Shown: one piece after another, positions 33,160-46,725 of the stretch | How the letters are laid out: each line of letters begins with the position of its first letter | Numbering within the stretch: position 1 is the stretch's first letter | Origin: Actinomycetes bacterium | GTDB lineage: Bacteria > Actinomycetota > Acidimicrobiia > Acidimicrobiales > Acidimicrobiaceae | Length of the DNA stretch: 46,978 nt | Assembly (NCBI GenBank): GCA_021799875.1 | Contig: JAJYZP010000009.1 | Coordinates: 1-46,978, forward strand | Reading direction: 5' to 3' | Translations under genes and position numbers: made by a program | The notes under the pieces: model-generated | The model's database searches: none | What the model was told of the DNA's origin: nothing | Seen by the model: the letters and a program-made list of their open reading frames with translations, nothing else

Positions 33160-33185
33160 GGTTGGGGTCTGCGAAAACCCCAACC
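33160..33185 (-). terminator. Hairpin terminator after the ferredoxin-GltD-flavodoxin gene
   Basis: 9-bp perfect stem GGTTGGGGT/ACCCCAACC with an 8-nt loop, 16 nt past the stop of the minus-strand gene, followed on that strand by TTCTGTCTTT. A GC-rich stem and T-rich tail fit a Rho-independent terminator. Confidence 0.6.
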
Positions 33186-33200
33186 TCCCATCCACGTAAC

Positions 33201-35663
33201 TCATACCTCCACCGACGGGGCGAGTGCTCGAAGTGTCTGTTCAATAGTTTCCAAAGCACGCCGAAGACCCTCATCGTCCGGATGTAAAGCAAGTTGCTCG
33301 ATCAATCTCGTCCTACTCTGCTCAAGCAGCATCTCATGCCCGTTGACGAAGTGTGCGAGCTCCTCCACTGCATTTTGCAGAGAAGACAACTGAGAACTCT
33401 TTGCCAAAAGAGCGATGACGTCGTCCGTCCGAGGAACGGGCTTGACCATATCGAAGAGCTGTGAGGAGAACGCTGCAACGGCACTCCTGTCGTTGAGTTG
33501 AGAGCTGAACGCCTGCTCTGCAACTACGTGAGCTCCATGCTCTTGCAACTGATTTCGCAGCTTTCTCAGTGTCGCTCGAGGATGCACACCGTAAGAACAA
33601 AAGGTAGCGATCTTGGTGGCACCAAGATTTGGGAGAGCTGCAACCGTCCCTCTGGTCGATCTTGCGGGACCGACTCCTGCAACAACGTAGCCTTGAACCC
33701 ACGTCCCCACCACAAAGAGATCGGCCGCCACGATCTCTCTCAGCCCAATGTCACAGAGACGTTTGGCAGTAACTACCGCCCCATGGTGCTCTAAGTCCTC
33801 TGCGAGCTCAAGAGCGAGCGTCTTCGTGTGCCCACCTGCACTGTCGTATGCAATGAGCACGGTCGCGACCTTCACCTCTCCAGCCAGGGAGACAGCGTGC
33901 GCCCGACGTGACATGATCGCTTCCGCTGCACGACGCCCCTGCGCCATGGCCTCCACAACCGACGACGGACCGATAAGGGCATCGCCAGCGACGTAAATAC
34001 CATCTTCGGTCCCAAGCGCTGCACCAAGTCTCCCGATCTCTCGAGCAAGGGACAGTCTGCCTACCGGACGATGGCGGGCAAAGGCAGGGGCACCGCCAGC
34101 AAGCAGCCCACTTGCCTGAAACTGCCGGTCCACCAGGTCCGGCACCGTACGATCCATCGGCTTCGTAGGAGCGAGACCCGTAAAGCTTGAATCGATCCGG
34201 TAACCCATTGCCATGACCACAAGATCGACCGCTTCGATAGCTTCACTCCCTTGCGTCACCTTTGGAAGCTTGTCCGCACGAGCTTGTGTCGTTGGGGCGA
34301 TATGAGCGAATCGAACACGACCGTCGTCGCCCTCGAGTCGGATCAGCGTGCGACGGAAACGAATATCAACCCCTTCGTCTCTCGCTTCACTGAGCTCATC
34401 GGGTCGCACCGGAGCAAACCGCTCATCCATCCAATCGAGACAGATCGCCTTTGCACCGAGTCTACGAGCAAGACGTGCGACGTCCATAGCCGTGTTACCT
34501 GCGCCTAGGACCAGTACGGTCGGGCCGTCTTCTCGGCGTCCATCCTCGAGGCCATCAAAGAGCGGAAATCGTTTTGACTGAGTCAGCGCAGCGAGGGCTT
34601 CGTTGAGGAACGTCGTAGCGTCGACGACGCCTTTGAGATCTCCACCGGTAACGGGTAACCGAAGTGCTGCACCAGCACCATGAGCGAGTAGAACGGCATC
34701 GTAGTGAGCCCGGAGGGATTCAACAAATTCCGACGTCACGGTCGTACCCTCGACGCAGCGGACTCCGGCGTCCTTCAACTGTTGCCATGGGCGATGAGAG
34801 ATCTGTCGAGGAAGCGTAAAGCCTGGAATCCCGTTGTGCAGGAGTCCTCCGAGTTCTGTCTCCTTCTCGTACACGGTTACCTGCGCGCCCGAGCGAACCA
34901 GTTCAAATGCCGCACCGATCCCGGCCGGCCCGGAACCAACCACCGCGACAGAGATGCCAGCTCCTCGAGCGTTCTCCTGAACGATCGGGGGCACCGCTGC
35001 GTTATCAGTGATAAACCGTTCAATCGCTCCAATAGCTACCGGAGTTCCGCCGGCGAGGGACCAAGTGCAAGCGCCTTCGCACTGGACCGCTTGATCACAT
35101 ACTCGAGAGCAGACATCGGGCAGAAAGCTCGTTCGGCGCAAGACGCTGTGTGCCTCGTCGAGGTCACCGTCACGAACCGCCGCTATGAACGACGGAATGT
35201 CGTTATGAACGGGGCAACCGCGCACGCAAGTAGGATCTGGGCAGCGAAGACACCGCTGAGCCTCCGCAAGTACGTCCGACCAGTTCAGAAATCCCGACCT
35301 GGTCTCTTCAACGTTCCCTTGTAGTTCCTTCACGACATGGTGAGAGACTTCAACCCTGGGAGCAACGAGGACCGGTCCGTCGACGGTGATGGCGCTAAAC
35401 GGACAGGTTCGCACGCACTGCCGACATCCGACACAGAGGGAGTCCTGCGCAACTGCGGTCCAACTCTTAAGCTCCATAGACAATGCGCCCGTTGGGCAGC
35501 GAACTACACACTCTTGGCATCCGGCACAGCGATCGGATAAGACGGTGACGTGAACTGATCCGGCGCCGGAATCGGTCGCTGACCCCGAAGGTGATACACG
35601 AGCTGTACCGGTATCGGAAGAGATGGTCGAGTTGTGATGAGATTGCAACTGCAGAAGCTTCAT
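33201..35663 (-). CDS. Ferredoxin-GltD-flavodoxin fusion oxidoreductase
   Basis: The 820-aa product combines four modules. About 40-95 has two [4Fe-4S] motifs (CAGCQECVVRCP and CVGCRQCVRTCP). About 135-200 is the Fe-S helical domain of glutamate-synthase small subunits (CLRCPDPTCVRGCPVHNDIP). About 235-600 has FAD (VAVVGSGPAGIGAAFE) and NAD(P) (VLVLGAGNTAMDVARLARR) Rossmann folds. About 605-745 is flavodoxin-like (LIAYDSAGGHTKTLALEL), then a helical tail. This suits an NAD(P)H-to-Fe-S/FMN electron switchboard. It follows the polyferredoxin gene by 12 nt with AAAGG 7 nt before ATG, so the pair is an operon; electron exchange between the two proteins is inferred. Confidence 0.85.
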   Translation of the reverse strand: MKLLQLQSHHNSTISSDTGTARVSPSGSATDSGAGSVHVTVLSDRCAGCQECVVRCPTGALSMELKSWTAVAQDSLCVGCRQCVRTCPFSAITVDGPVLVAPRVEVSHHVVKELQGNVEETRSGFLNWSDVLAEAQRCLRCPDPTCVRGCPVHNDIPSFIAAVRDGDLDEAHSVLRRTSFLPDVCSRVCDQAVQCEGACTWSLAGGTPVAIGAIERFITDNAAVPPIVQENARGAGISVAVVGSGPAGIGAAFELVRSGAQVTVYEKETELGGLLHNGIPGFTLPRQISHRPWQQLKDAGVRCVEGTTVTSEFVESLRAHYDAVLLAHGAGAALRLPVTGGDLKGVVDATTFLNEALAALTQSKRFPLFDGLEDGRREDGPTVLVLGAGNTAMDVARLARRLGAKAICLDWMDERFAPVRPDELSEARDEGVDIRFRRTLIRLEGDDGRVRFAHIAPTTQARADKLPKVTQGSEAIEAVDLVVMAMGYRIDSSFTGLAPTKPMDRTVPDLVDRQFQASGLLAGGAPAFARHRPVGRLSLAREIGRLGAALGTEDGIYVAGDALIGPSSVVEAMAQGRRAAEAIMSRRAHAVSLAGEVKVATVLIAYDSAGGHTKTLALELAEDLEHHGAVVTAKRLCDIGLREIVAADLFVVGTWVQGYVVAGVGPARSTRGTVAALPNLGATKIATFCSYGVHPRATLRKLRNQLQEHGAHVVAEQAFSSQLNDRSAVAAFSSQLFDMVKPVPRTDDVIALLAKSSQLSSLQNAVEELAHFVNGHEMLLEQSRTRLIEQLALHPDDEGLRRALETIEQTLRALAPSVEV

Positions 35664-35675
35664 GACAGTACCTTT

Positions 35676-37397
35676 CTAAGATGCAGCGTGCATGATGACG
35701 TAGAGGAAAGCTGCTCCGATGCCAAAGAGGAGCGGGAGCGCAAGAGTAACGATCCGAGTAACGGCCGGTCGTTGCGAGATGGGAAGCAGCTCACGATCGG
35801 CAATCTTCCACGTCGCCCAGATCGATGCAAGCATCCCGAGCACGATGACTACAACCTGAACCGCAACGATTCCCGGATTGGAGAGCAGTCGCGTGTTGTA
35901 GAGCGTCGAGTGCACCCCACCAGCACCGAAGAGGTTGCCAACATCTGGAATAATCCGAGACGCATGCTTGAAGAACTTCGGAAGCTGTCGCGCGAAGTAG
36001 TCCGCGCCAACGACCGGAATAAGCCCGTACATGAGAGGCATGAAGACCAGACGAAAGCTGCTCGTCTTGGTGATAAAGCTCTCAGAGGTCGCCGTTGAAC
36101 CCTTCGGATTGAGAAGGTTCGTACTCGCTTCGGAAGCATAGACCGGGATTGAAGAGACAACAGAAGCACGAGAGAAGGAGCTAGATGCCTGCGCGCCTGC
36201 GGTCACAGATGGCTCTAGGTCCGACGCCTGATAAACGGTTGTCGATGCGGCAACGTCCTCTTTCAGCAGGTAGCGCTGTGCAAGCTTGACAAGACCTGCT
36301 GTTCCAAGCGCAACAAGTCCAATAGTTCCGAGATAGTCAATGGGGTTCGGATACGCGAGACCGGTCACCTTATTCAACCAACCGTCGATAGTTGCGTAGA
36401 GAGTCGTAGCGTTCACCTGTTGAAAAACGACAAGCCCCCAGAGCAGCGCTACGGCCCATGCAACGTCTGCACGTCGCCGGGTCGGGGCGACTACCGAGGT
36501 CATTGGCTTTTGCAAGAAGAGCCCTATGTTTCCCTCCGGACAACCCTTATAGCACTCCGAGCAGAGCCCACAGGCAAGATTTGAGTCGGCCGAGCCTGGC
36601 CACGTATACCAAGGGCAGCCATACCCGTTGACTCCTCCTCGCATGCAGTCTTTGGTCGCACAGCTGAGGCAGAGTTCACGATCCTTGGTTCGATACCCAG
36701 CAACCGATCCCATTGCGCCAACTGTTCCAATCAAAGCTGTCAACGGGCAAAAGTACCGACAGAAGGTCCGACGTTCGAAGACCAAGAAAAAGAGCAGGGC
36801 GCTTGCTACGATACCGAGCACCATGAAGCTCGTTGCCCAGGGATTACCCGGACCCGCTATGTTGAAGTACTCCTCGATCCACGTGAGTACGATGAAAGAA
36901 CCTACGGAGATCAAGAAGCCATAGCGTGCGATCGGCTCAGGAAGTTTTCGTCCAAGACCAAGGCGGCGTTGGCTTCGGCGCCAAAATGCTCGACGTTGAA
37001 TCCACTCGGCGAAGCCTCCGAACGGACACATCACACACCACGCCCGACCGACGACCACCATCATGACGAAAACGAGACAGAACCAGATATACCAGGTAAT
37101 TGCGGTCCCGAAGTTGAGCCCTGGTACCACGGTTCCCAGGAGCCCCAAGATGATAACGAGCCAGAAAATGATCTGATTCGGAAGGATCATGGCAAATTGG
37201 AACTTCCGACTTCTCAGTACCCGCGCCACCTTCGGGTACTTGCTAATATCCCAGCCCTTCGGGGGGTCTGACGGGGCAAAGCGCTCCTGAACGCCAGTAC
37301 GAATCGCTGGTCGAAGCCGAATTGCGACCGCCACTGGATCGGGGGGCGGGGAAGACGTCGTCGATGATGTCTCACTGGGCCTCTCACGTAGTTCCAT
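35676..37397 (-). CDS. NosR/FixG-type membrane polyferredoxin
   Basis: The 573-aa membrane protein has about eight to nine helices with CVMCPFGGFAEW and CRYFCPLTALIG (the twin CxxxCP-type motifs of Fer4_5 membrane ferredoxins), then a cytoplasmic Cys-rich loop CLSCATKDC...CPWYTWPG...CGLCSECYKGCPEGNIG that can hold two clusters. C-terminal helices follow after a Ser-rich linker. Relatives such as NosR, FixG and RdxA move electrons across or along the membrane to respiratory or maturation enzymes. ATG has GGAGG 7 nt upstream. Transcription starts at the promoter at 37440-37469, overlapped by operator-like repeats of the divergent Rrf2 gene. Confidence 0.82.
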   Translation of the reverse strand: MELRERPSETSSTTSSPPPDPVAVAIRLRPAIRTGVQERFAPSDPPKGWDISKYPKVARVLRSRKFQFAMILPNQIIFWLVIILGLLGTVVPGLNFGTAITWYIWFCLVFVMMVVVGRAWCVMCPFGGFAEWIQRRAFWRRSQRRLGLGRKLPEPIARYGFLISVGSFIVLTWIEEYFNIAGPGNPWATSFMVLGIVASALLFFLVFERRTFCRYFCPLTALIGTVGAMGSVAGYRTKDRELCLSCATKDCMRGGVNGYGCPWYTWPGSADSNLACGLCSECYKGCPEGNIGLFLQKPMTSVVAPTRRRADVAWAVALLWGLVVFQQVNATTLYATIDGWLNKVTGLAYPNPIDYLGTIGLVALGTAGLVKLAQRYLLKEDVAASTTVYQASDLEPSVTAGAQASSSFSRASVVSSIPVYASEASTNLLNPKGSTATSESFITKTSSFRLVFMPLMYGLIPVVGADYFARQLPKFFKHASRIIPDVGNLFGAGGVHSTLYNTRLLSNPGIVAVQVVVIVLGMLASIWATWKIADRELLPISQRPAVTRIVTLALPLLFGIGAAFLYVIMHAAS

Positions 37398-37414
37398 GGA
37401 TCAACCTCCAAACA

Positions 37415-37431
37415 TTAAGTTATTCACTTAA
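37415..37431. promoter_or_regulatory. Inverted repeat operator 1 (Rrf2 site candidate)
   Basis: TTAAGT-TATTC-ACTTAA has perfect 6-bp arms, is AT-rich, and covers about +2 to +18 of the polyferredoxin operon transcript, an ideal repressor position. The linked divergent Rrf2-type gene makes that protein the natural candidate. Confidence 0.55.
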
Positions 37432-37439
37432 CGTCATGT

Positions 37440-37469
37440 AGTCTAACAGACATAAGAACTATACGTCAA
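37440..37469 (-). promoter_or_regulatory. Sigma70-type promoter of the polyferredoxin/flavodoxin-fusion operon
   Basis: On the minus strand -35 TTGACG (37464-37469), 18-bp spacer, -10 TAGACT (37440-37445), then about 36 nt leader to the ATG at 37397. It is the best -35/-10 match noticed in the window. Confidence 0.6.
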
Positions 37470-37474
37470 GTTCT
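37455..37474. promoter_or_regulatory. Inverted repeat operator 2 (overlaps -35 of the divergent operon)
   Basis: AGAACT and AGTTCT, perfect 6-bp arms separated by 8 bp. It covers the -35 of the minus-strand operon and the presumed -35 zone of the Rrf2 gene, so binding here could control both. Confidence 0.5.
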
Positions 37475-37478
37475 GCAC

Positions 37479-37484
37479 TATATT
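37479..37484 (+). promoter_or_regulatory. Leaderless -10 element (TATATT) for the Rrf2 gene
   Basis: TATATT, 6 nt, then ATG at 37491. There is no Shine-Dalgarno, so a leaderless transcript is likely. Confidence 0.45.
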
Positions 37485-37490
37485 TAAATC

Positions 37491-38423
37491 ATGGATATGA
37501 CCTTGTCGAAGAGAGGGGACTACGTCGTACGCTCCGCCTTGTGTCTAGCACGAGCGTATGAGTCGGGGGATTACAGAAAGATTCGCGAGGTCGTAGCCGA
37601 AATGGATGTGCCGCAGACCTTCGCATCCCAGATCCTTGCAGACCTCGTACGTGCCGGAATCGCTGATTCCAAGGCAGGCAAGGCCGGCGGCTATCGGCTT
37701 GCTCGTGATCCTATGGACGTATCGCTACTACAAATCGTTGAAGCTGGGGAGGGGCCTCTGCGCTCTGAGCGCTGTGCACTCGGAGAGGGGCCCTGCAGAT
37801 GGGAGAAGGTCTGCCCCCTCCACGAAACGTGGAGTGAAGCGACCGCATCGCTTCGCCGCACTCTCTCTGAGACCAGCCTGGCCGATATTGTCAAACGCGA
37901 TGAAGATCTCGAGCGGTCGGATCACGCTGTGCCGCTCGATTCCCATCGACACGGATCCCTCACACTCGAGCTCGTCGACTGGGTGCAGATAGAACTTCCG
38001 ACAGCTGTTGTATGTCAGCGATTGCAGCGCAACGAGTCCTGGATTACTAAAGCGGTGAAGGCCGGGTACAGCGATGCCGAAGGACTTCGTTGCACAATCG
38101 ACCAAGGTGGAACTGCCTGGTCGATCGCTGGGTCACCGGTTGTAGTGCTTGGGAGAGGAGGCACCAATACCGAGAGAGAACGCCAGCTCATCTGGGAAGC
38201 GGGCGGACGCCAAGGCGCCTCATCCCGCTTTGAAGGCTCACTGATCCTTCGAGAGATCGATGATGAAAGGACAGAACTTCGCCTAGCCGGCAAGTTCCGG
38301 CCACCACTTCTTCCAGCCAGTACGGATCGGGCTCTCACAGAACGATTAAGTCGCGCAACTCTCCGAACGACTCTACGAGAGATCGCAAAAGTACTGGAAA
38401 ACCGAACCGAGCGATCAGCCTAG
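37491..38423 (+). CDS. Rrf2-family Fe-S regulator fused to an SRPBCC-like C-terminal domain
   Basis: The 310-aa product begins with an Rrf2 winged helix (LSKRGDYVVRSALCLARAY; VPQTFASQILADLVRAGIADSKAGKAGGYRLAR). Three cysteines, C-x6-C-x5-C (ERCALGEGPCRWEKVCPL, about 93-107), match the cluster-binding loop of IscR/NsrR/RsrR regulators. Normal Rrf2 proteins end near 150 aa. Here a second domain (about 165-305) with FEGSLILREIDDERTELRLAG and a long C-terminal helix resembles SRPBCC/polyketide-cyclase folds, which bind hydrophobic ligands. It probably senses redox state or NO through the cluster and perhaps a ligand through the second domain; this is inference. It likely controls itself and the divergent redox operon. 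Confidence 0.8.
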   Translation: MDMTLSKRGDYVVRSALCLARAYESGDYRKIREVVAEMDVPQTFASQILADLVRAGIADSKAGKAGGYRLARDPMDVSLLQIVEAGEGPLRSERCALGEGPCRWEKVCPLHETWSEATASLRRTLSETSLADIVKRDEDLERSDHAVPLDSHRHGSLTLELVDWVQIELPTAVVCQRLQRNESWITKAVKAGYSDAEGLRCTIDQGGTAWSIAGSPVVVLGRGGTNTERERQLIWEAGGRQGASSRFEGSLILREIDDERTELRLAGKFRPPLLPASTDRALTERLSRATLRTTLREIAKVLENRTERSA

Positions 38424-40986: not shown

Positions 40987-43215
<2,229 letters not shown>

Positions 43216-43250: not shown

Positions 43251-43694
43251 TCATTCATCGAGTCTTGTCTTCTCCTGACACGAGGGACAGAGTCCCCAAA
43301 AGATCACTTCAGCCTCATCAATGGTGAATCCTTGGTCATCCACGACATCGAGACAGGGCTTAGCTCCTTTAACACAATCAACGTCAACGGTAGTCGAACA
43401 GGACCGACACACGAGGTGATGATGGTTATCATCAACCCTTTGCTCGTAGCGGGTCGCTGATCCAGCGGGTTGAATCCGCCGGAGTAGCCCCTTATCGGTC
43501 AGCGTGGTTAAAGTGTCGTAGACCGATTGTCGAGAGATCGTACCGATCTCATCTCGAACCAGTTGCTCGAGTTCGTCCGCCGTTCCATGCGGTTTCCGAT
43601 CAATAGCGCGCAATACCGCCAACCTCTGAGCTGTAACCTGCATGCGATGCTTGCGCAGCGCTATCGCATGGCTACTACTACCACTTTCGTCCAC
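43251..43694 (-). CDS. furA: Fur-family peroxide/iron regulator (FurA-like)
   Basis: The 147-aa product has a winged helix (HRMQVTAQRLAVLRAI; SRQSVYDTLTTLTDKGLLRRI) and a dimerisation domain with DDNHHHLVCRSC and a second CPSC, giving two CxxC pairs for structural zinc and His-rich regulatory metal site residues. In actinobacteria FurA represses itself and katG and is relieved by peroxide. GTG 43694 is chosen over TTG 43700 because TAAGGT lies exactly 6 nt upstream. Confidence 0.92.
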   Translation of the reverse strand: MDESGSSSHAIALRKHRMQVTAQRLAVLRAIDRKPHGTADELEQLVRDEIGTISRQSVYDTLTTLTDKGLLRRIQPAGSATRYEQRVDDNHHHLVCRSCSTTVDVDCVKGAKPCLDVVDDQGFTIDEAEVIFWGLCPSCQEKTRLDE

Positions 43695-43700
43695 AACCAA

Positions 43701-44593: not shown

Positions 44594-44794
44594 CAGTTGA
44601 CTCCTTCATCGTGATACGATGCACGTCGCATCGGTACGGTGAAACCTAACGGCAACGATTCCACTCAACCATGACCTGGTGGGAGTGTTGTCAGCACCTC
44701 TCCATGACCTAGGTTGCTACTCCAACTGGAGTACGTGAATAACCACCTGAGGTCGTAGAAGCACCTTACGAAAATGGCCTACGCTGGAAGAGTC

Positions 44795-46063
44795 ATGTCC
44801 ACAGTTCCCCCCATCCAAACCGGCCCGAAGTGGCTCGTACCCGCCGGAACCACCTTTGCCGCTCTCCTCACCGTGCTCGGCGCGTATTTTGAGGCGTATC
44901 CGCAACATCACTATGCCGGACTCCATCTCGCTTCACACCTCCCAGTTATCGCTCTCCTCCTACCGCTCATGGGAGCACTTGGACTCACACTCGTACAACG
45001 AAGCGCCACCGGAGCCCTAGCGATAGCAGCACTGGCCTGTATGGCCTGGTCCCTGCTCGGCCAGCTCAACGGCGCAACACTCGTCCCCGTTCTCGTTGCC
45101 CTGTTTTGGCTCTCACGCGAGACGCCGTGGCGACAAGCTCTAGCACTCGCTCTTCCGTCGGCGATACTGCTGTGGGTGGTGAACGGTCTCTTTGGACCAT
45201 TTGGGTGGATTGGCGGACCAGGGCTCACGATGTGGCCCGAAATGGCAACAGCTCTTGCGCTCGGCGGAATCGTCTATGCACGCCGGCAGTGGCGGGCCGA
45301 GACTGCAGCTCGGCTCCACGATGCTGCAATCGCACGACAAGAGGAGGTGCAGCACATCATCGATCAGGAACGCATGCGTATCGCTCGAGAGCTACACGAT
45401 GTCGTTGCCCACTCCATGGCCATGATCAATATTCAAGCCAACGCCGCCCTCACCGTGATCCAGGACAACCCAAAGGCCGCAAGAGAATCAGTGGAGGAGA
45501 TCCGACAAGCGAGTAAGTCTGGGCTTCGAGAACTTCGAGCAATACTTGCCGTCATGCGCGACCCTGAACACGGCACACCAACCGAGGTGGTTCCTGACCT
45601 CTCGGCGATACGTACGCTGGTCGACGCAGTCACTGCCGCAGGTACCCCCACATCTCTCGTCGTTGACGAAGAGTATCTCGAACCCCCGGCACCGATCGCA
45701 CTGGCGACCTTTCGCATTATCCAGGAGGCTCTTACGAACGTCGTACGGCACGCAAGGGCAGCCGAGACCACGGTCACTATTCGACGGGTCGGTTCGTGCA
45801 TCCGATTAACGATCGCCAACGGTCCAGCAGCACAACGATCGATCTTTAACGAAGGGACTGGAGCGGGTATCATTGGCATGTCCGAACGCGCACGCTCGTT
45901 ATCTGGCACGTTCACGTCTGGCGTACTAGAGAACGGCGGTTTCGAGGTCACAGCAGAGCTCCCACTTCCGACTTCAAGTGGAACGTCTTTGCCCTTAGGC
46001 AACGAGAAAGCCGAGAGCGGTGAGCTCACTACCTCATTCGATCAAATGGCTCACCCATCGTGA
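44795..46063 (+). CDS. NarL-family sensor histidine kinase
   Basis: The 422-aa kinase has four to six N-terminal helices (to about 170), a short coiled coil, the HisKA_3 dimerisation box RIARELHDVVAHSMAMINIQA with phospho-acceptor His, and an HATPase domain with FRIIQEALTNVVRHARA (N box) and GAGIIGMSERARSL (G box). The signal is not evident; the sensor part is all membrane, as in DesK-like kinases. ATG 44795 is preferred to ATG 44774 because GGAAG lies just upstream. Its stop overlaps the response regulator start (GTGA). Confidence 0.9.
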   Translation: MSTVPPIQTGPKWLVPAGTTFAALLTVLGAYFEAYPQHHYAGLHLASHLPVIALLLPLMGALGLTLVQRSATGALAIAALACMAWSLLGQLNGATLVPVLVALFWLSRETPWRQALALALPSAILLWVVNGLFGPFGWIGGPGLTMWPEMATALALGGIVYARRQWRAETAARLHDAAIARQEEVQHIIDQERMRIARELHDVVAHSMAMINIQANAALTVIQDNPKAARESVEEIRQASKSGLRELRAILAVMRDPEHGTPTEVVPDLSAIRTLVDAVTAAGTPTSLVVDEEYLEPPAPIALATFRIIQEALTNVVRHARAAETTVTIRRVGSCIRLTIANGPAAQRSIFNEGTGAGIIGMSERARSLSGTFTSGVLENGGFEVTAELPLPTSSGTSLPLGNEKAESGELTTSFDQMAHPS

Positions 46064-46725
46064 TCCGGCTCCTTCTCGTCGACGACCAAGCACTCATTCG
46101 TGCCGGCCTCAAGGTTCTACTTCAATCAGCGGCCGACCTCGAGGTGGTGGCCGAGGCAGCAAACGGGCTTGAAGCTCTCGGACAAGTCCGCTCTCAGCAG
46201 ATCGACATCGTCTTAATGGATATTCGAATGCCAATCATGGATGGTATCGAAGCAACCAAAGCGATCTCAAGCGATCCGCAACTCCTCCAAACCCGCGTGA
46301 TCGTCCTGACCACCTTCGCGGAGGACGAGTACATCGTCGAGGCTATCCGAAGCGGCGCAAGCGGATTTCTAGTCAAAGATAGTGAGCCAAAAGAGCTCAT
46401 AGAGGCAGTTCGAGTGGTCCATCGAGGAGACGCCCTTCTCTCTCCAAGTGTCACACGAAGATTGATTGCCACAATCGCCAGCCGAGGCTCGTCATCACCG
46501 TTGAACGCCTCCGCGCTCGAGATTCTCACAGACCGAGAACGCGAGATCTTGTCACTCGTTGGATCAGGTCTCAATAATGACGAGATCGCCAAGACGCTCT
46601 ACCTGAGCCCATTGACCGCAAAGACCCATGTCAGCCATATCATGCTCAAACTTAAGGCTCGGGACCGCGCTGCGCTCGTTGTTATAGCGTACGAAACTGG
46701 ACTCGTTCGGCCATCGTTGTCATAG
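46060..46725 (+). CDS. NarL/LuxR-type response regulator
   Basis: The 221-aa product has a receiver domain (LLLVDDQALIRAGL; phospho-Asp in DIVLMDIRMPIMDG; VLTTFAEDEY; GFLVKDSEP) and a LuxR-type helix-turn-helix (LTDREREILSLVGSGLNNDEIAKTL...SPLTAKTHVSHIMLKL). It is activated by the kinase encoded just upstream (4-nt overlap). Targets unknown; the DUF6069 gene is the nearest divergent candidate. Confidence 0.95.
   Translation: MIRLLLVDDQALIRAGLKVLLQSAADLEVVAEAANGLEALGQVRSQQIDIVLMDIRMPIMDGIEATKAISSDPQLLQTRVIVLTTFAEDEYIVEAIRSGASGFLVKDSEPKELIEAVRVVHRGDALLSPSVTRRLIATIASRGSSSPLNASALEILTDREREILSLVGSGLNNDEIAKTLYLSPLTAKTHVSHIMLKLKARDRAALVVIAYETGLVRPSLS

Follow-up and report, generated by a model that had tools for sequence, protein, structure and literature searches.

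An Rrf2 regulator with a predicted SRPBCC domain and the putative redox unit it may control in Acidimicrobiales

RESULTS

The window, i.e., the whole stretch of DNA analyzed here, comprises 46,978 nucleotides (positions 1 to 46,978 of contig JAJYZP010000009.1, our C174) from a 2.47-Mb draft assembly (GCA_021799875.1) of an Acidimicrobiaceae actinomycete placed in our genome family f1. It contains a unit of three open reading frames (ORFs; positions 33201 to 38423) in which the gene for an Rrf2-type regulator with a second, SRPBCC/START-type domain (Reg) diverges across a 93-bp intergenic region from the gene for a membrane polyferredoxin (MemFd); a gene for a ferredoxin-GltD-flavodoxin fusion (Gfus) follows 12 bp 3' of MemFd. 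We tentatively favor, at a little below even confidence, the reading that this is a dedicated, autoregulated redox unit: a module connecting NADH, ferredoxin, or flavodoxin with menaquinone under the control of a cluster-bearing Rrf2 repressor whose SRPBCC domain binds a hydrophobic ligand. The domain assignments, the conserved MemFd-Gfus pairing, the operators, the association of these with Rrf2 genes, and the local regulon are supported computationally. The features of the unit are as follows.

37491..38423, plus strand: Reg, 310 amino acids (aa), Rrf2 plus SRPBCC/START-type domains (from Pfam, AF2, VIA, and ligand residues)
Reg residues 1-140: Rrf2 DNA-binding domain, with the ligand set C95-X6-C102-X5-C108-X2-H111
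Reg residues about 158-307: C-terminal SRPBCC/START-type domain (from AF2 and VIA)
37463..37485: operator 2, ACGTCAAGTTCTGCACTATATTT, differing from the 23-bp consensus at 2 positions
37440..37469, minus strand: MemFd-Gfus promoter-like site, TTGACG-18-TAGACT, with TG before the -10
37412..37434: operator 1, ACATTAAGTTATTCACTTAACGT, 1 mismatch to the 23-bp consensus
35676..37397, minus strand: MemFd, 573 aa, NapH/NosR-like membrane polyferredoxin with a Fer4_5 core and an extra C-terminal membrane region
33201..35663, minus strand: Gfus, 820 aa, ferredoxin-GltD-flavodoxin fusion
33160..33185, minus strand: stem-loop 3' of Gfus, GGTTGGGGT...ACCCCAACC, a probable terminator with an interrupted U-tract

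Distribution of the unit

Of the 148 genomes from the order, 33 have MemFd, as do 8/246 genomes sampled across the phylum. A scan of a genome collection added 80 MemFd loci, nearly all from metagenome-assembled genomes labeled Actinomycetes, Actinobacteria, or Acidimicrobiales/-aceae. Gfus lies immediately 3' of MemFd in 99 of the 105 distinct loci, with contig ends accounting for the other six. When the Reg subfamily threshold was set at a gap in the scores and co-occurrence was counted by hand in the 148 genomes, MemFd was found in 27/30 Reg-positive genomes versus 6/118 others (Fisher's test, P = 1.3e-20). A preliminary description of this DNA had staked itself on the co-occurrence of the three genes and on the relatedness of the regulator's C-terminal domain to SRPBCC proteins; the neighborhood survey bears out the first point and the structural comparisons given below the second.

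The regulatory part of the unit varies. Some loci encode an Rrf2 protein without an SRPBCC domain (e.g., L057 and L061), an SRPBCC protein alone adjoins MemFd at L065, and Reg is sometimes located downstream in the operon. At L064, a PAS-type sensor kinase and a LuxR-type response regulator adjoin MemFd, and no Rrf2 gene was found.

The three genes may also share a history. MemFd is 73% identical to its counterpart in a genome from another family (G124) versus 51 to 55% within the family; the corresponding values are 72% versus 44 to 47% for Gfus and 84% versus 55 to 56% for the Rrf2 domain. The window's 2-oxoglutarate decarboxylase/dehydrogenase, compared across six genomes, is closest to that of G082 (same family; 67% identical) and is 64% identical to that of G124. 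Because G124 is far ahead for all three genes of the unit, unlike for this one housekeeping marker, the comparison suggests that the genes were transferred horizontally together. At the level of the order, the distribution of MemFd was not accounted for by profiling it against POR, complex I, or RuBisCO.

Operators and local regulon

Inspection of the intergenic regions shared by reg and MemFd revealed a 23-bp dyad (ACGTNNAGT-N5-ACTNNACGT), in favor of which a simpler 14-bp half-dyad (ACTNNACGTNNAGT) was dropped. The dyad occurred at two or fewer mismatches in 34 of 47 such regions (0.06 expected from shuffles), and 30/47 contained at least two dyads at three or fewer mismatches (0.01 from shuffles); because the window's own locus was among those used to derive the motif, these chance statistics are partly circular. 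Counted back from the last base of the reg start codon, the commonest dyad starts were at 31 to 32 and 81 to 86 bases. In the window alone, four hits at three mismatches were obtained, a number that is not unusual, and the case for the operators therefore rests on the comparison of loci. A site was found upstream of MemFd in 68/71 loci with an Rrf2 gene and in 7/34 loci without one, several of the latter lying on contigs too short to exclude an Rrf2 gene. Random 280-base stretches contained a site in 49 of 2,100 cases (2.3%). At locus L039, the operator half-site recurs in near-identical tandem copies (ACTAACCTCTAGTTCAGC), which form an operator array about 80 to 160 bases upstream of reg.

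The site also follows MemFd when the regulator gene moves. It was retained at MemFd in 17 of 19 loci where Reg is not divergent, loci that fall mostly outside the motif-deriving set yet are related by descent. In G050, where the Reg and MemFd promoters are separated, each carries a site. When the consensus was fitted to the window's own pair of sites, these two were the only zero-mismatch matches in the window genome, and one-mismatch hits were at the level of a reversed-pattern control. The pattern matched at least once in 13 of 15 relatives, and only the hits at the Reg-MemFd-Gfus unit recurred between genomes. Since the sites persist where Reg has moved and no other site in the window genome rises above background, Reg looks like a dedicated local regulator of the pair and of itself.

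Operator 2 overlaps the MemFd -35 element and the presumed reg -10 element (TATATT, just upstream of the reg start), and operator 1 lies just downstream of the MemFd -10 element. This layout is the one expected for repression of both reg and MemFd. The MemFd promoter-like site is of the extended -10 type and lies between and over the operators. Promoter-like sites in the region are no commoner than in shuffles; it is the position that supports the MemFd site. The stem-loop after Gfus is strong (folding z score of -4.5), while a terminator pattern scan did not call it. The unit had been proposed to have its own promoter, operators, and terminator and to be self-contained. The operators, far above chance in the comparison of loci, hold up well, as does self-containment in view of the local regulon and the possible joint transfer; the promoter and terminator stand as a well-placed candidate and a stem-loop with an interrupted U-tract, respectively.

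MemFd and Gfus

MemFd contains two Fer4_5 stretches (1.8e-11; PF12801, 44.2 bits against a cutoff of 22). Twelve cysteines are invariant, and both C121xxCP and C213xxxCP are conserved without exception, as in a membrane Fer4_5 core. This core with CX2-3CP motifs is shared with NapH, NosR, and RdhC, and the further [4Fe-4S] cysteine motifs are shared with NapH and NosR. Unlike in these systems, no NapG or NapF was recognized, the NosR FMN domain was not found, an extra C-terminal membrane region is present (conserved Y457, D466, R470, Q471, and K474), and the partner is a GltD-like flavoprotein. MemFd scored below the curated equivalogs (NapH/MauN, 27.1 against 213; NosR, 15.4 against 1,000), and its model, of moderate quality (pLDDT of 75), had no fold match in the PDB at a meaningful score, which is not evidence of a new fold. 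By sequence, then, MemFd is its own family sharing the NapH/NosR core; its earlier characterization as NosR/FixG-like is apt for that core and does not extend to the C-terminal membrane region, which lacks a fold match. In NapH, the membrane segments are the proposed site of quinol oxidation (PMC5928378).

No relatives of MemFd were found on viral contigs. Plasmid matches from Deinococcus, haloarchaea, and cyanobacteria were set aside: at 22 to 28% identity, and without an adjoining Gfus in the three examined, they are assigned by sequence to a wider membrane-ferredoxin group. On a Pseudanabaena plasmid (L200, 3495 to 6188), an annotated cyclic-nucleotide-binding domain is combined with a match to the MemFd ferredoxin core, directly before cysK.

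Gfus consists of an N-terminal 2x[4Fe-4S] ferredoxin, a GltD/dihydropyrimidine dehydrogenase (DPD)-type Fe-S domain, FAD and NAD(P) domains, a flavodoxin-like domain (about residues 603 to 720), and a C-terminal tail. Pfam matches were Fer4_7, Fer4_20 (2.2e-33), Pyr_redox_2 (3.3e-22), and Flavodoxin_1 (1.9e-5, barely over the cutoff), and the cysteines of four [4Fe-4S] motifs are invariant. The closest PDB entries were DPD subunit A, NfnI alpha, and GltD (best, 1.9e-67), and the curated GltD score was not reached (gltA, 262.6 against 471.75). The Fer4_20, FAD, and NAD(P) domains resemble GltD, NfnL, and the N-terminal half of DPD. In contrast to these, Gfus has a ferredoxin domain at its N terminus and a flavodoxin domain at its C terminus, and no GltB, NfnS, or DPD partner was recognized; among the recurrent neighbors, part of which were domain searched, no NfnS-type protein was seen. 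The domains of the pair are thus as first described, with the qualification that the flavodoxin-like domain occurs in 65 of 90 complete Gfus proteins and is common, not universal.

In Rossmann folds, acidic residues in place of the basic residues that bind the NADPH phosphate predict the use of NADH. In nearly all Gfus proteins, those of the main clade, the basic Arg-Arg-type residues of GltD, Nfn, and DPD are replaced by Asp/Glu-Trp (LDW in the window), which predicts a preference for NADH. Five loci (L066, 5728 to 9631; L067; L068; L069; and L070) carry a paralogous MemFd-Gfus pair that has diverged to about 40% identity. Its aligned members show an NADPH-like Arg-Arg motif and no flavodoxin domain, and neither an Rrf2 gene nor an operator was found with it. 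A conserved gene precedes this pair; in the one copy inspected (L066), its product begins like a lipoprotein and matches no Pfam family.

The composition of the pair also invites a reading in which it runs uphill: with quinol or NADH as the electron source and the proton gradient as the driving force, it would supply reduced ferredoxin or flavodoxin for biosynthesis, in the manner of Rnf or Fix. The ferredoxin and flavodoxin domains built into Gfus fit such a role, the charged, conserved C-terminal membrane region of MemFd could serve ion movement, and the window itself encodes an NADH-forming 2-oxoglutarate dehydrogenase. POR-type oxidoreductases, which would otherwise reduce ferredoxin, are lacking in all four genomes of family f1; however, their absence does not follow MemFd across the order (P = 0.77), and a flavoprotein with an FNR-type NAD-binding domain exists in these genomes. 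No Rnf or Fix subunits were recognized beside the pair or among the domain-searched part of its recurrent neighbors, and 25/90 Gfus proteins lack the flavodoxin domain. We consider a low-potential supply role rather unlikely.

The two domains of Reg

Residues 5 to 135 of Reg match Rrf2 (PF02082, 2.3e-28; 99.4 bits against a cutoff of 30), and TIGR00738 likewise places it in the family (98.8 bits; cutoff, 73.3). Structural matches to the N-terminal half were CymR, IscR, RsrR, and NsrR. Across the 51 Reg family members, C108 is invariant and C95, C102, and H111 are each conserved in 50; judging from these residues, Reg probably carries a [2Fe-2S] or [4Fe-4S] cluster on C95/C102/C108/H111. The set is one residue longer than that of IscR, described as C-X5-C-X5-C-X2-H (PMC9218516). 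In its winged-helix domain, its cluster-ligand region, and the placement of dyad operators close to divergent promoters, Reg is like IscR, NsrR, RsrR, RirA, and SifR; the added SRPBCC domain, the CX6C spacing, and the distinct operator are unlike known Rrf2 regulators, and Reg is below every NCBIfam equivalog cutoff (NsrR, 37.8 against 182; IscR, 58.6 against 207.6; RirA, 49.5 against 193; CymR, 43.1 against 195). Within the family, SifR is a quinone sensor (PMC9218516), and rsrR is separated by a pair of RsrR sites from a divergently oriented regulator gene whose product has a domain of the NAD(P)-sensing type (PMC5015018). A second Rrf2-SRPBCC copy stands on the opposite side of the pair at L078 (7014 to 7958, the same as L037 4884 to 5828); in this copy, the sole exception in the Reg family, C95, C102, and H111 are replaced, and it is possibly cluster free.

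Reg extends about 150 residues beyond the Rrf2 domain. The window protein matches Polyketide_cyc2 (PF10604) weakly (E value of 0.09; 13.5 bits, under the gathering score of 27.4), 11 of 51 family members match this model (best E value, 7.5e-5), and a sequence profile of the domain had no match among PDB sequences. In an AF2 model built from 51 sequences (mean pLDDT of 89.6), residues 159 to 307 are arranged as b-a-a-b-b-b-b-a with a long final helix, as in a helix-grip fold. The nearest VIA neighbors were 2ns9 and 2pcs (Z score of 10.2), 2d4r (TTHA0849; 10.0), CoxG of Mycobacterium smegmatis (8uds; 9.8), and ZhuI (3tfz; 9.6); further neighbors include the aromatase/cyclase TcmN and plant hormone receptors. 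The likeness to CoxG and other SRPBCC/START proteins thus extends over about 130 residues at a Z score of about 10, unlike which the Reg domain is fused to a DNA-binding domain and, in the window, falls under the Pfam cutoff. The second domain that had been predicted for the regulator is therefore supported as an SRPBCC fold by the model and its structural neighbors.

This domain was kept in 67 of the 69 Rrf2 proteins in our tree, from which several fragments and short proteins classed as N-terminal only were left out; the two proteins without it come from G082 and G117. Homologues, fused or separate, occur in 29/33 genomes with MemFd versus 10/115 others. Separate homologues occur, for example, at L235 (5877 to 6428), L240, L243, L245, and L247; several of them adjoin a histidine kinase, a LuxR-type response regulator, or both, the sensor kinase at L243 being of the GAF type.

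These data bear on another view of Reg as an IscR/NsrR-type cluster sensor of nitric oxide (NO), oxygen, or iron, with the SRPBCC domain a structural appendage and the pair a stress-induced electron valve. The ligand spacing close to that of IscR, the presence of RsrR, IscR, and NsrR among the nearest solved structures, and the identical operator kept where the SRPBCC domain is missing all agree with it. Nevertheless, such retention of the domain, and its association with MemFd genomes, would be unlikely for a useless appendage; Reg scores far below NsrR, IscR, and RirA; and no genes for NO detoxification or Fe-S assembly were recognized among the recurrent neighbors. We regard this view, too, as improbable.

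What the domain binds is a matter of analogy. CoxG has been reported to bind menaquinone (PMC13240472), and the menaquinone of Acidimicrobium ferrooxidans is MK-9(H8) (PMC3035218). Given these points, the CoxG-like fold, and the membrane partner, the domain may bind a hydrophobic ligand, perhaps menaquinone, a proposal of low probability. We also consider improbable the full dual-sensor version, in which a CoxG-like pocket would read menaquinone and the Rrf2 cluster the redox state, with Reg controlling an undescribed NADH/flavodoxin-menaquinone oxidoreductase. Least probable is that the domain binds another hydrophobic compound (a lipid, aromatic acid, or polyketide) and that the pair donates electrons to an unlinked oxygenase or reductase: aromatase/cyclases and hormone receptors among the fold neighbors speak for it, but oxygenase or biosynthetic genes are not widely recurrent in the neighborhood, and the quinone pool is the partner suggested by a membrane polyferredoxin.

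DISCUSSION

Under the reading that we favor, a cluster-bearing Reg dimer would bind both 23-bp operators between reg and MemFd and repress the MemFd-Gfus operon as well as its own gene. Gfus would take hydride from NADH onto FAD and exchange electrons with MemFd, in one direction or the other, by way of up to four [4Fe-4S] clusters and, as an additional carrier, its tethered flavodoxin-like domain; MemFd in turn would give electrons to the menaquinone pool or receive them from it. The SRPBCC domain of Reg may bind a hydrophobic effector that reports on the membrane pool, with menaquinone as a first guess, and repression would be relieved when the state of the cluster and/or the ligand signals a redox imbalance. 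In this scheme we infer the cluster itself, repression rather than activation, the NADH preference, the path and direction of the electrons, and the identity of the ligand.

Several observations weigh against this scheme. Complex I is encoded in every MemFd-positive genome; the MemFd-Gfus pair is no replacement for it, and a second NADH-quinone route would therefore be partly redundant. Beside the pair, some lineages have a sensor kinase and a response regulator instead of an Rrf2 protein. At some MemFd loci, the operator is kept with an Rrf2 protein lacking the SRPBCC domain, which makes that domain dispensable for DNA binding. The ligands of SRPBCC folds are diverse, and CoxG, ZhuI, and TTHA0849 tie in their VIA scores, so the fold of the model leaves the subfamily undecided. 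The partial circularity of the operator statistics and the common descent of the rearranged loci count on the same side.

Elsewhere in the window, a gene that is catalase-peroxidase-like by sequence (40987 to 43206, minus strand) has a Fur/PerR-like regulator gene directly upstream (43251 to 43700, minus strand), and a NarX/NarQ-like sensor kinase gene (44774 to 46063, plus strand) is directly followed by an ORF on the same strand (46060 to 46725).

By sequence, every element of the unit comes from a known superfamily, and none falls within the curated definition of a known equivalog. In the open-access literature searched, neither an Rrf2-SRPBCC protein nor the MemFd-Gfus pair was found described; the one paper naming both domains seems, from its title on natural products of a Streptomyces, to be unrelated. 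Most signals known for Rrf2 regulators are sensed through a cluster or a thiol, and a member with an added small-molecule domain would broaden the family. How the state of the membrane quinone pool is read in the cytoplasm is a long-standing question in bacteria, for which this unit would offer a compact, testable case with defined operators. MemFd-Gfus itself is an apparently unstudied respiratory or ferredoxin-linked enzyme, common to many Actinobacteria of acidic habitats, the cultured A. ferrooxidans among them.

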